Positions 4,079-14,903 of a DNA stretch of 34,903 nt are shown piece after piece. Origin of the DNA: an uncultured Bacilli bacterium (GTDB lineage: Bacteria; Bacillota_I; Bacilli_A; RF39; UBA660); NCBI GenBank assembly GCA_947626425.1, contig CANQRX010000004.1, positions 1-34,903 of the forward strand, given 5' to 3'. The translations under genes were made by a program, and so were the position numbers. Positions within the stretch are counted from its first letter, which is position 1. Every line of letters starts with the position of its first letter. The notes beneath the pieces were generated by a model that saw nothing but the letters and a program-made list of their open reading frames with translations, ran no database searches and was not told the origin of the DNA.

Positions 4079-5137
4079 AGTTTCTTCTAATTTTAATTGG
4101 AAAGGGGACTTTGAGCTACCATCGCCCCCAATAATTTTAACTGAGGATTTTAAGTAGACAACAGGGCGTATGTCATTGGTAGAATTGGCTTTAGACTTTC
4201 CAACATAACCACCTATGTCGATCCTAGATACTGAACTAGCATCAGATACAATAGGTGCAGGGGTTATTGTCCAGGCTCCATTACTTAATAGCCAATCATT
4301 TTCAGAACAATATCTATTATCTGAAGTATGCCAACTATGTAATCTGGTGTATAAACATATGTCTCTTTGGCTTTGAGTTCCACCTCCATCTGTGGCATAT
4401 CCATAGTCCGATGGATACATTAAACCTACTTTGCCTTGCCATGTTGTTTTTCGATTAATATCATCACTACAATATTGTGTATGAGTACTGCAACCTAACT
4501 TACCATTATAATTACTTCGTTCCCACATATATTGAAATGGTGTGACATCACTTGTACTTAAAAATGTTAATGCGTAGGCAGTTCCTGTATTCCAAATCAC
4601 TTCTTCGACCATGTTTTGGGCTTCAGTGCCTAATCCTATTTTTTCCCATTCGGGACATGTATCGTATCCATAGTTTTTATAACAATGATGATCTTCAAAT
4701 GTTTTAGATTGAAAGTAATCGTTATTTAAAACAATCATTAAGTCGGCTTGACTCCATTCATTTATTCCAGATGCCAAATTTACATTTGCAGTTGAGTAAT
4801 CCCAACAATAACTTCCTATATTTTCTCTTATGATTTTTAATAATCTTTCAGTATTTCCAGAAGCTGTTTTTATTCCATCCATTAAACCAATAATGCGCCA
4901 AGTTTCACAATTATTGTCATCTTTGCAATTAAAGTATACGTAATTATTCGGATTTTTGCCTATGTATCTAATATTATTATAATCATCTTCAACTAATGAA
5001 CCCAGTGTTTCTTCATTAGTTTCTTGAATTAATAAATCTTCCATTTTGCTTGCACCACTTTGTTCTCCTGTGATGCTTTTTGAAGTTGTAAAGTTTAGGG
5101 TACACTCAATGTTATTAACTTAAGAAATAATTTAAAG

Positions 5138-6511
5138 ATGGATTTAAAAAATCTGTCTTTTTTGATACAATTAAAGAGAATAAAAAAGGTGGTAGTAATA
5201 TTGATATATAGTAAGTATTCTGTAACAAATTCGAAAGACATAGTTTATAAAAAAGAAAGCAAGATAAAATACAGAACACAAGAAAGTTACTTTACAAGGG
5301 ATAGAAAAATGCCTTTTGATAAAGTGGTACTTTATGGATTAAATAAGAGAGGATTAACAAGTAAAATGGAAATAGAAGACTTTACTGATTTAATAAATTC
5401 TGTTGATGTATCATCACCAGCAGTATTAAAACAAAGATTAAAATTGAATGGAAGAATATATTTAGATATAATGCAAACGAATCTAGTTGATTTTTATGAA
5501 AAATTTACAGAAGATGTAAAACTGTTTCATGGATATATATTAACAGCAATAGATGGAAGTGATTTTGAAATACCAAATACTAAAAAAACAAGAGATGAAT
5601 TTAATGAGTATCACGAAGAAGAATTAGTTGCAAGAGCAACTGTTTCAAATATGTTTGATGTACTAAATCATTATGTTATGGATACAATTATAGAAAAGTT
5701 CGATTATTCTGAAAGAAAGATGGCCAATGAACATTTTAAAACAATCAAAAAATTAGAATTAAAGTATCGAATTATAAGAACAGGAGACAGAGGATATTCA
5801 GGAATAGTTGATATGTATTATTCATTGAAAACCGATGATAAATTTGTATATAGGCTTAAAAAAAGCGATTTTAAAAAATATATTCAGAATATGAAAACAA
5901 ATGATGAAATAGTAACGATACCATATGAATATAACCGAATAAGATATTATAAAGATGAATATCCAGAATTCTATAAAACTATGGAAGAAACAAAAGAAGA
6001 TATTAAGGTTAGAATAGTAAAAATTAATAATAAAGATGGAGAAGAAATCATATTGGTTACTAACTTAGAAGAAGATAAATTTGACTATAATACGATGGTT
6101 GAGCTTTATAAATTAAGATGGGAAATTGAAACTAGTTATCATTTATTAAAAGAAAGTTTAAAAATTGAAACAATAACAAGCAGTTTTAAGACAATAATTG
6201 AACAAGATATATATTCTCAAATGTTAGCATTTAATATTATAAGAGCCTTTGCTAATGATGCACAAAAAGAAATTGATCAAACTAAGTATAAGTATGAAAT
6301 GAAAATAAACATGAATATGGCAGTAGGATTCGTTAAAAAAATGTTTATTTTAATAATCATTGAGGAAGATAGAAGTAAACAAGATGAAATGTTTGAATTA
6401 TTAATGAAAAAAATATCGAAATACATAGTCCCAGTAAAAAAAGATAGACATTACCCTAGAAATAAAAATAAGAAAAATAAATATTCTATAAATAAACGAA
6501 AAGCATTTTAA
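5138..6511 (+). CDS. IS4-family transposase
   Basis: 457 aa; DGSDFEIPN and YREK motif YKLRWEIETSYHLLK (Y-x2-R-x3-E-x6-K). Confidence 0.92.
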   Translation: MDLKNLSFLIQLKRIKKVVVILIYSKYSVTNSKDIVYKKESKIKYRTQESYFTRDRKMPFDKVVLYGLNKRGLTSKMEIEDFTDLINSVDVSSPAVLKQRLKLNGRIYLDIMQTNLVDFYEKFTEDVKLFHGYILTAIDGSDFEIPNTKKTRDEFNEYHEEELVARATVSNMFDVLNHYVMDTIIEKFDYSERKMANEHFKTIKKLELKYRIIRTGDRGYSGIVDMYYSLKTDDKFVYRLKKSDFKKYIQNMKTNDEIVTIPYEYNRIRYYKDEYPEFYKTMEETKEDIKVRIVKINNKDGEEIILVTNLEEDKFDYNTMVELYKLRWEIETSYHLLKESLKIETITSSFKTIIEQDIYSQMLAFNIIRAFANDAQKEIDQTKYKYEMKINMNMAVGFVKKMFILIIIEEDRSKQDEMFELLMKKISKYIVPVKKDRHYPRNKNKKNKYSINKRKAF

Positions 6512-6536
6512 ATGTTATAAATAACTATATTGTTAA

Positions 6537-6554
6537 CCGTAATTTAAATTACGG
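6537..6554. repeat. 18-bp perfect palindrome inside the IS downstream of the transposase
   Basis: CCGTAATTTAAATTACGG. Confidence 0.6.
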
Positions 6555-7000
6555 GGCGTTGCTGTGCTGTAATTTAGGTAAATTCAAAAAAACAATGTAT
6601 ATCATTGTAATATGATTGCATTGTTTTAAATAAAATCTGCTTAAGTTAATAACATTGGGGTACACTTTGTTTTTTGGGTTGTATTTAATATAAATTGCCA
6701 ATTGGTTCTGTCCCATGAACCAGTGGCTCCATTCTCGCATTCTGCACTTTCAAAATATATTCCTGTATCTTTGGCAGGAATTTCTTTTTGAGATACTCCG
6801 TCTACATTAACCGCGATGATGGGATTATCTTTGTTGCTACTGTGAAGTTGTCCATTAATAACAGAATAGCTCTGTGTAGCCTGATATTTACCAAATGCAT
6901 TTCCTAGTATGAAAACACTACCAATTCCTAAAATGCTTAAACTTGATATAAGAACATATTTAGTTTTGTTCTTTTTTATTTTAAATTTATATAATTTCAT

Positions 7001-11152: not shown

Positions 11153-12524
11153 ATGAAAATAGAAAATTATAAGTTAAAAGTAAGTAAAAAAACAAAGATT
11201 TTGATTGGAAGTATGGTAGGAATAATGGCCCTAGGGGGGGGGGTATTTATTAGATAAGAGTTTAGGAAAATACCAAGTCGAACAAAGTTTTCCCATAATG
11301 AATGGGAAAATTCAAGCAAGTGGAGATGTTTCTATCATTGCTATTAAAGTTGATGGAGCTGTAGTAGATGAAATTCCAGCTAAAGGTTCAGGAAAATATT
11401 TTGAAAGTGCGGAATGTTCAAATGGAGCTACGGGATCATGGGATCGAACGAATTGGCAATTTTTATTAAATACAACCAAAAAAACCAAATGTACATTAAA
11501 TTTTACAACAACAAAAAGTACAACTGGTGAACAAAGTGGTGCAAGTAAAATGGAAGATTTATTATCTCAAGAAGAAGATAAAGGATCAGGAATAACTATT
11601 GTCAGTGATGATAATAACATTAGATACATAGGAAAAAGCCCAAATAATTATATTTATTTTAATTGTAAAGATGGTAGTAATTCAGGGACTAATTGTGAAA
11701 CATGGCGAATAATAGGATTAATGGATGGAATAAAAACCAAAGCCGGAAAAACAGAAAGATTGTTAAAAATCATAAGAGAACCATTACCAAAGAATTTAAG
11801 TTGGGACTCATCAGATTCGAATGTAAATGGGGGCAATGGAGTGAATGAATGGAGTCAAGCAGATTTAATGACTGTCTTAAATGGTGATTATTTTAAAGGC
11901 CAAACAGGAACTGATAAATGTTATAGTGGTTCTAGCGAAAAAACAACAGAATGTCCAGATTGGACCCAGTATGGTTTAAAAAAATCAGCCCAAGATATGA
12001 TCGAAGAAGTGGTTTGGAATACGGGAACGGCCTCAGGAACTGAAAACACTTGGCAAAAAGAAAATGTGCCAGTATTTCAATATATGTGGGAACGAAGTGA
12101 TTTTACAGGAAAGCAATGTAATGGTGGAAGTTATTGTAACGACGATGTTCAAAGACAAACCACATGGGAAGGTAAAGTAGGTTTGATGTACCCATCGGAC
12201 TATGGATATGCCACCGATGGAGGAGGCGACCAAGTGAAAAGAATGCAATGTTTATATACACCATTATATAATTGGGGTAATAACAGTAATTGTAAAAGTA
12301 ATGATTGGCTTTACGATTCAAGTAATACTCAATGGACAATGACACCTGCGCCGAACTCTTCGAATGCTTACCGTGTGTTCCTTGTCTACACGGGCGGGAC
12401 TGTCGACTACTACTATGCCCACTTTGCTTACGCGGTTCGCCCCGTCGTGTATCTGAAATCGAATGTGAAGATTTCTGGAGGAGAAGGAACCTCAAGCAGT
12501 CCATACACTTTGACGATCAGTTAA
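11153..12524 (+). CDS. DGR target (variable) protein; N-terminal frame broken at the G10 tract in this sequence (intact downstream ORF 11298-12524)
   Basis: ATG at 11153 with SD aggaagga. G10 leads to GGGVFIR-stop; G9 gives ...ALGGGYLLDKSLGKYQVEQSFPIMNGKIQ..., homologous to the paralog N-termini, 456 aa in total. VR lies at the C-terminus. Confidence 0.88.
11234..11243 (+). repeat. Poly-G (G10) homopolymer tract in the TM-anchor coding region
   Basis: ctaGGGGGGGGGGtattta in an otherwise AT-rich context; one G off-frame. Confidence 0.9.
12347..12445 (+). repeat. DGR variable repeat (VR)
   Basis: Ungapped 99-nt alignment to 12629-12727 (offset 282): 16 mismatches at TR adenines (16 of 30 A), 2 other mismatches (T->C). 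Confidence 0.96.
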
Positions 12525-12628: not shown

Positions 12629-12727
12629 TGCGCCGAACTCTTCGAATGCTAACAATGTGTTCAATGTCAACACGAGCGGGAATGTCAACAACAACAATGC
12701 TAACAATGCTAACGCGGTTCGTCCCGT
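12629..12727 (+). repeat. DGR template repeat (TR)
   Basis: Non-coding copy of VR rich in AAC/AAT codon-equivalents (aac aat ... aac aac aac aat gct aac aat gct aac), located between the target gene and RT. Confidence 0.96.
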
Positions 12728-12828
12728 ATAGAGCCCTTTAAACAATGGGGATATCATGATTAAGGTTATAATATGAATCTTAAAGGACAATACTTATCTA
12801 GAGTTATACTCGAATATATTACATAAAT

Positions 12829-12850
12829 GAGAATTTATACGTAAATTCTC
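12829..12850 (+). other. Perfect 9-bp hairpin with TACG loop between TR and the accessory genes
   Basis: GAGAATTTA-TACG-TAAATTCTC. Confidence 0.6.
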
Positions 12851-12857
12851 TAGCCCT

Positions 12858-13250
12858 ATGTATTTTTTAGAAATGGAAAAAAATGAAAATTATCTTATAA
12901 TTCGGAAAGTTGGTTTATTTTATAATGCTTTTGATGATGATGCTATAATTCTTAATTATTTGCTTGACTATAAAATTATTAATGGTCGATGTGGTTTTCC
13001 AGAAAATGCTGTTAATAAAGTTATTAATATTTTAGAAGATAAAAAAATAAATTATTTAATTATGGAAGAAGAAGAAAAAAAGCAAAATTTTAAGAATCTT
13101 AATCAATATAGTAAATATTTAGCTAAAGCTAAAGATAAATTAACTTTAGTAAATTTAATTGAAGAAATTAAAAAAAAGTTAGTTAAAATGAATGAAGGAC
13201 AGTTATATGAACTTCTTAATAAATTTAAGGAATTAATCGATGAATATTAA
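12858..13250 (+). CDS. MutS domain-I-like DGR accessory protein (start may be ATG 12873)
   Basis: YLIIRKVGLFYNAFDDDAIILNYLLDYKI...GFPENAVNKVINILEDKKINYLI resembles the MutS mismatch-recognition domain (GDFYE.F.dDA...GiP.HAv..yl.kL...g..vai). Confidence 0.65.
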   Translation: MYFLEMEKNENYLIIRKVGLFYNAFDDDAIILNYLLDYKIINGRCGFPENAVNKVINILEDKKINYLIMEEEEKKQNFKNLNQYSKYLAKAKDKLTLVNLIEEIKKKLVKMNEGQLYELLNKFKELIDEY

Positions 13251-13568
13251 TGAGTTTCGAATTGTTAAAAATATTAAAAAGTACATTCTTTCTTTAGATA
13301 AAATTCTTGTTAATTTTCCTAGAAAAGAAAAAATATTAAAAGATAAAATTAAAGAAACTTCTTTTGATGTTTTAGAATTAACTTATTATGCTAATACTCT
13401 TGAAGAAAAAAAGGAAATTCAAAAACAAATTATTAGTTAAATATGCTCGATTTTTATTTTGAATATGCCCATAAGTGTAGTTTTATAAGTGAAAAACAAT
13501 GTTTAAATAAAACAAATGAATTACTTGCGATTACGAAAATGATTTACGGGTGGATTAAAAATGGATAA
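13240..13568 (+). pseudogene. avd: Avd-like DGR accessory gene with one frameshift (N-half 13240-13440; C-half frame 13437-13568)
   Basis: N-half ...LDKILVNFPRKEKILKDKIKETSFDVLELTYYA... and C-half LDFYFEYAHKCSFISEKQCLNKTNELLAITKMIYGWIKNG together look like a four-helix Avd. The halves are in different frames; the 3' end overlaps the RT ATG. Confidence 0.7.
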
Positions 13569-14616
13569 ATACATTAACTTACAAAATATTCTTAGTCTTT
13601 ATGAAGATAAAATTAGTAAAACAGTAAAAAATAAAAAAAGATTATATCGTTTTGAAAGAAATAAATATGCCAATATAACTAACATCATTAAACAGTTAAA
13701 AAGTGATAATTATCATATGCAACCATATAACATCTTTATTATTCATGAACCAAAATGTCGGTAGTAATGTCACTGGATTTAAATGACAAAATAATTAATC
13801 ATTTTATAACTAAATTTGTTTTAGAACCGAAACTTGAAAAATATTTGGATATTAGAAATATTGCAACTCGATGGAACGGATTATGGTATTAAATTGACGA
13901 AAAAATATATTGAACAAAATAAAAAATATGAAAATTTTTATGTTTTAAAAATGGATATAAAAAAATATTTTTATAATATTGACCATGAAATAATTAAAGG
14001 AATGCTTAAGCGTGATTTAGATGAAAAAGAGTACAATTTTATGTGTAACATTATTGATAGTACCAATGAAGAATACATAAATGAATATTTAAGCAAAGTA
14101 AAAAAAGAAAATCCGGATATATCTTTATATTATAAAGGTAAAGGGTTACCAATTGGCAATTTAACAAGTCAATTTTTATCAATTTTTTACTTACATGCGT
14201 TAGATCACTTTATTGTTCATGATTTGAAAATTAAACATTATGTACGTTATATGGATGATTTTATTTTGATGCATCCTAGGAAAGAATATTTGTATCATTG
14301 CAAAGATATTATTATTGATAAGTTAAAAAAGGAATATAAATTAGAAGTTAATTTAAAGAAAACCAAAATTGTTAGTATTAAACAAGGTTTTGAATTTATT
14401 GGTTATCGTTATTTTTTGAAAGGGAAAAAAACAATTGTGCTTTTAAGGAAAAAAACTATTACAAAAATTAAAAAACGAGTTCGAGAGCTTCATTATTTGT
14501 TTAAGCATCACAAAATATCTTTAGAAACTTACTTTACTTCAATTAATAATTATTATCATTCTTTTAAATATGGAAGTAGACAAAAAATAAAAAGAATTAT
14601 TACGAGGTATGAATGA
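13561..14616 (+). pseudogene. DGR-type reverse transcriptase, two frameshifts (intact C-terminal ORF 13834-14616)
   Basis: Fragments: 13561-13764 (...YNIFIIHEPKCR), 13763-13891 frame (VVMSLDLNDKIINHFITKFVLEPKLEKYLDIRNIATR), then GTDYGIKLTKKY...VLKMDIKKYFYNIDHEI...GLPIGNLTSQFLSIFYL...YVRYMDDFILMH...FEFIGYRYF. YMDD catalytic motif present. Confidence 0.9.
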
Positions 14617-14903
14617 GTATATATAAACGTTATCAAGTTATTAAAAAGTTGTATAATGAATCATTAGCTATTTTTAGTGAAAAAAATAATTTAACAAGTT
14701 GTTATTATGATTGGTGGTTTCTGCAAGGTTTTAAATATCAAAAAAATGTTTTGAAATTATTAGCCAAAAAACAAATAAATTATATTATGGTAGAAAATTT
14801 GAATGTTTTAGAAGAAAAAAAATTTTCTAATAATCAGTACAATCGAATTTATTACTTTGAAATTTTTAATAATATTTTTCAGTTTATTAAAAAACATACA
14901 TAA
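14613..14903 (+). CDS. Small ORF coupled to RT; possibly a second diverged MutS-N-like DGR-associated protein
   Basis: ATGA overlap with the RT stop; MSIYKRYQVIKKLYNESLAIF...GFKYQKNVLKLLAKKQINYIMVE shares a motif with the ORF at 12858 (ILEDKKINYLIMEE). Confidence 0.5.
   Translation: MSIYKRYQVIKKLYNESLAIFSEKNNLTSCYYDWWFLQGFKYQKNVLKLLAKKQINYIMVENLNVLEEKKFSNNQYNRIYYFEIFNNIFQFIKKHT

Follow-up and report, generated by a model that had tools for sequence, protein, structure and literature searches.

A Probably Inactivated Multi-Target Diversity-Generating Retroelement and the Poly-G Tracts of Its Target Genes in an Uncultured Bacilli Bacterium

Introduction

In surface gene families with poly-G or poly-C tracts, such as those of Campylobacter and Neisseria, the length of the tract sets the reading frame or the promoter spacing. 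Diversity-generating retroelements (DGRs) offer another route to variable proteins, and in the TvpA DGR of Treponema denticola one TR and one reverse transcriptase (RT) serve up to seven remote targets, while some isolates of this species retain leftover targets after the loss of the DGR core (PMC4891356). Thiohalocapsa PB-PSB1 has nine loci of this kind, with 15 targets of the conflict-system type, and diversification in trans has been discussed for it (PMC10907252), and the reconstituted system of BPP-1 requires both RT and Avd for retrohoming (PMC12875486). Here we describe a locus of an uncultured Bacilli bacterium which, judged from its sequence, is a chromosomal DGR in a cellular setting, and for which a search of viral and GTDB contigs found no close strain (best match 51% identity). 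The explanation that we consider probable is that of an inactivated multi-target DGR, in which avd and RT were broken recently, one TR served many VRs in trans, and the target family is switched by poly-G tracts.

Source Genome and Scope

The window, 34,903 nucleotides long, is the whole of contig C4 of genome G000, a metagenome bin represented by one consensus genome (1.29 Mb, 109 contigs, 87% complete, 13% of the genome missing). Genome-wide counts for G000 come from sequence searches together with selected stretches, and the genus comparison set consists of 37 genomes, among them relatives such as G003, G004 and G032.

The Cassette

From left to right on the forward strand, the cassette holds a target gene with a G10 tract and a VR, the TR, a spacer RNA, a MutS_I-like gene, avd, the RT and a small ORF. 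In the target gene (11153-12524), a signal or transmembrane leader (11153-11233) is followed by the G10 tract, which lies within a membrane segment (11234-11243) and puts the body out of frame in the assembly; this body, 408 aa counted from 11298, carries the VR (12347-12445) in its 3' end. The TR (12629-12727) is AAC-rich and non-coding, and no other was found in the genome. It is followed by a structured spacer RNA (12730-12866) that is kept beside the intact DGRs of the genus and covaries across eight of the genus DGR loci: their alignment contains 35 pairs, 19 of them with two-sided changes, none of 500 shuffles reached the observed value, and slid controls were 39-45% paired vs 97.9%. The spacer has no Rfam match, and the Rfam search of the locus returned nothing credible except a downstream tRNA. 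The MutS_I-like accessory gene (12858-13250) is intact, scores above the cut-off (PF01624, E = 1.5e-6) and holds the equivalent position beside the intact DGRs of relatives.

Then come avd (13240-13568), in two frames split at about 13437-13443, and the DGR-type RT (13561-14616; PF00078, RVT_1, E = 7.7e-16), whose frame is broken at about 13762 and at about 13864-13872. The 3' piece of the RT retains the motifs LKMDIKKYF, LPIGNLTSQ and YMDD, the last two corresponding to the (I/L/V)GxxxSQ and YxDD motifs of DGR enzymes. NF033474 and PF22296 are hit by both halves of avd, though the split keeps each half under the curated cut-off. In the PDB, the RT of an intact relative is matched best by entry 8ub7, listed as 'Reverse transcriptase' (328 aa), which we take to be the BPP-1 enzyme. 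The majority of the nearest DGR loci have homologues of the small ORF (14613-14903, 96 aa, no family assigned), which recurs near DGRs of the genus and in some cases lies at the opposite side of the cassette. Elsewhere in the window, a target paralog on the reverse strand (4091-7000) is split by a transposase-like gene (5138-6511).

Template and Targets

Over 101 aligned columns, the VR in cis departs from the TR at 17 of the 31 adenines of the template and at 3 of the 70 remaining positions (p = 2e-8), so that the differences are concentrated at adenines. The sequence-only reading, made before any search, had noted just two non-A positions at which the VR does not fit the TR, and this was correct (TR 12701 and 12722). 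The latter position lies in the 3' IMH-like end, where 7 of 11 VRs have in common a base other than that of the TR, and so probably reflects an IMH/IMH* difference and not decay. Non-A differences common to several VRs suggest that the TR itself has changed over time and that the VRs were written at different dates.

A search of G000 with the TR found VR-like DNA on eight further contigs. The same adenine-specific rule is seen in genes on C28 (8706), C26 (14142), C52, C109, C2, C49 and C54 (p from 4e-9 to 2e-3), and the VRs of C1, C7 (13067) and C46 have the same bias with more non-A changes. At least 75% of the internal mismatches are at A in seven VRs, that in cis included, a threshold that has been used for secondary targets (PMC8144416). 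In total, 7-11 genes on different contigs, that in cis among them, carry VRs matched by the single TR, hence about six to ten besides the cis target. A comparable arrangement remains intact in relative G004, in which RT and Avd are whole and a single TR of its own is accompanied by about nine VRs with the adenine bias, spread over separate contigs (two of the VR entries, L221 and L223, being the same VR). Since one TR matches many VRs with adenine-specific differences in unlinked genes, both in G000 and in G004, the locus can be read as a DGR that acted in trans on multiple targets within a phase-variable family of surface proteins. This family has about 50 matches in G000 and up to 50 in other genomes of the genus. 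The fold of its VR domain gave only weak sequence matches to DUF6273 (7 of 14 members, best 4e-4), a search of the PDB gave no match to the domain, and an AlphaFold model of the target protein was discarded at a mean pLDDT of 34.

The Poly-G Tracts

The sequence-only reading had counted the G10 tract among four frame defects, along with the breaks in avd and RT. The assembly does contain the three breaks of avd and RT, but the tract is a different feature, since leader and tract occur at the equivalent place in 27 family members of G000 (one of them cut by a contig end). Among these paralogs a G9 tract with an open frame is present in four (C1, C47, C52 and C109), most have G10 and one has G11, G9 being in frame and G10 and G11 out of frame; homopolymer length thus varies among copies and sets the frame, the variation being that between paralogs. 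Two VR-bearing genes, on C52 and C109, are in the ON state (G9). In 168 of 171 member pairs, similarity is higher over the 126 nt upstream of the tract than over the body, and the genome as a whole contains 50 tracts of at least eight G, vs about 2.7 expected. Because the same tract recurs in so many members, its length separates in-frame from out-of-frame copies and such tracts are in large excess, G10 in the window is a predicted phase-variation switch, set to OFF, rather than a lesion of decay. Related genomes of the genus contain from 0 to 58 such tracts each, and in G003, G032 and G011 they also lie within DGR-linked target genes or upstream of them.

Several further sets of tracts were seen. 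On C68 (L199, 1-3300) and C33 (L214), a tandem family of genes for proteins of about 180 aa (MEAKKNN..., a G tract, VILFVLAIGMFGVSFA) has tracts of G10, G11 and G12, with G11 in frame. In six other stretches (L126, L132, L137, L213, L129 and L212), G9 or G10 tracts lie between TTGACA-like and TAAAAT-like hexamers, some of them upstream of proteins of about 630 aa with the C-terminal domain of the target family, and these are candidates for transcriptional phase variation. Outside the genus, the single-contig genome G045 (same class, other family) has 22 tracts of at least eight G and is possibly another phase-variable lineage. Loss of mismatch repair as the cause of tract instability and indels was considered and rejected, a MutS_V domain being present in G000 and in 34 of the 37 genomes of the genus.

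Lesions in avd and the Reverse Transcriptase

The avd-like halves (13240-13440 and 13443-13568) do sit in different frames, each half separately matching bAvd/DivGenRetAVD, and the RT is spread over three frames (13561-13764, about 13764-13865 and about 13873-14616). The comparison with orthologous cassettes that the sequence-only reading had proposed was informative: avd (111-115 aa) and RT (353-362 aa) are each readable in a single frame at six relative loci (G004, two in G032, G008, G025 and G005), and G033 provides a seventh, more distant intact locus. Frameshift-aware alignment against four intact loci of the same genus gave one break in avd (13438) and two in the RT (13762 and 13872) in every case. 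Compared with the six relative loci, the net shortfall of DNA is about 4 bases in avd (13437-13443), 1 base (13762-13765) and about 8 bases (13864-13872) in the RT, so that the proposed single missing base holds for the first RT lesion and not for the other two. None of the three lesions lies in a homopolymer, and the pieces between them contain no stop codon; the 8-base lesion takes out part of a conserved stretch, conserved residues included. Because of these three indels relative to intact homologues of the genus, neither the Avd nor the RT protein can be read in one frame, and the locus, in which an intact RT and Avd for retrohoming are not found in the assembly, is therefore classed as an inactivated DGR and not as a working one. 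Isolated frame damage was also observed in other paralogs, on C31 and C16, and given this damage some of the indels may be general to the assembly or to the lineage.

Is the Loss Real, and How Recent?

An artefact of assembly or sequencing, with avd and RT intact in the organism and the DGR active, is unlikely in our judgment, although it has several points in its favor. The source is a MAG, a low-coverage or mixed-strain consensus of such a bin could create indels, and three indels accompanied by no nonsense substitution are a lopsided tally for random decay; in addition, the non-A fit of the VRs equals that of a relative with an intact RT. However, net shortfalls of 4, 1 and 8 bases outside homopolymers are unlike the usual short-read or nanopore errors, the remaining ORFs of the window are long and open, and G tracts were resolved to G9-G12. 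Interrupted RTs are moreover present at at least four other loci of the genus (G003, G011, G030, where the interruption is an insertion, and C62 of G008). Programmed frameshifting, or split proteins that restore function, is highly improbable. The 5' half of avd does stop 2 nt before the ATG that opens the 3' half, which makes termination-reinitiation thinkable, but the aligned relatives have no such breaks, no slippery heptamer was seen at the RT site, and a lesion of 8 bases that deletes conserved residues, with none of the lesions in a homopolymer, makes frameshifting a poor account; it was rejected on the lesion sizes and on the unbroken relatives.

An RT acting in trans from elsewhere had been raised as a way for the DGR to remain active. 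Such an RT and Avd would lie in the unassembled part of the genome and the window locus would survive as a TR donor, and this we hold to be quite unlikely, a little more so than an artefact. The missing 13% of the genome could indeed hold an intact RT, some relatives have two or more DGR loci (C6 and C11 of G032), and the TR and the spacer RNA of the window are intact; yet searches of the 87%-complete assembly with the RVT_1 profile and with the RT protein found the window locus only. A match to the RT on C19 (E = 0.019) proved to be a housekeeping region.

The inactivated, multi-target DGR is thus the explanation we prefer, and the claim that it was silenced recently is supported as far as avd and RT are concerned. 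None of the intact relatives has the lesions, and the 1,365 nt contain no nonsense codon, against an expectation of about 72 per substitution per site, which places neutral divergence since the loss below about 4% (95%). Internal non-A mismatches of the VRs do not differ between G000 (1, 1, 2, 4, 4, 5, 6, 7...) and G004 (0, 1, 1, 2, 3, 6, 7..., a list with one duplicate; p = 0.65), and the TR and the covarying spacer RNA are both intact. With no nonsense codon, an intact TR and spacer RNA, and non-A mismatches equal to those of a relative with an intact RT, the loss of avd and RT looks recent. In the sister species G003, where the RT is also broken, the TR is degenerate (L096, 1704-1799) and its adenine pattern partly lost, which looks like an older decay of a DGR.

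Before the lesions, a complex of RT and Avd would have made copies of the TR RNA that were erroneous at adenines, and these would have homed in trans into many VRs, while slippage of the G tracts in populations would independently determine the members of the family that are produced. Now that RT and Avd are broken, the repertoire of VRs would be frozen and phase switching would go on. We can tentatively extend this to a two-layer surface variation, a possibility for which we see somewhat less than even chances: one DGR would rewrite the tips of a genome-wide surface-protein family, most members of which are silenced by the poly-G switch, slippage would pick the prediversified variants to be displayed, and here the writer would just have been lost with the switch remaining. 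If this is true, silent genes could diversify hidden from selection and be switched on later, targeted hypermutation and poly-G switching being two surface-changing routes on the same genes. A DGR caught shortly after its inactivation, together with the intact DGRs of sister species, also makes the decay of TR/VR fidelity after loss of the mutator measurable.

Comparison With Known Systems

DGRs and poly-G switching are each known, and a search of the open-licence literature for DGRs combined with phase variation, homopolymeric tracts or slipped-strand mispairing found no paper, which is weak evidence, within that part of the literature, that the combination is an apparently unreported setting. 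The system of Thiohalocapsa PB-PSB1 resembles ours in its cellular setting, its remote or incomplete loci and its evidence of trans diversification. It differs in its number of DGR loci and in its conflict-type targets, and the string 'phase vari-' is absent from the main text on it (PMC10907252). The switched genes here include DGR targets, which separates them from the poly-G and poly-C families of Campylobacter and Neisseria. With the DGR of the Bordetella phage BPP-1 the window locus shares RT, Avd, TR, VR and a structured spacer RNA after the TR, but that element belongs to a phage and has a single target in cis, whereas the present one is cellular and multi-target. The TvpA DGR of T. denticola is similar in that one TR and RT serve remote targets differing from the TR mainly at adenines; here, however, the targets number 7-11 out of about 50 family homologues, their leaders bear G-tract switches, the cassette includes a MutS_I-like accessory gene, and, in contrast to the T. 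denticola isolates with leftover targets, the DGR core is broken rather than absent.
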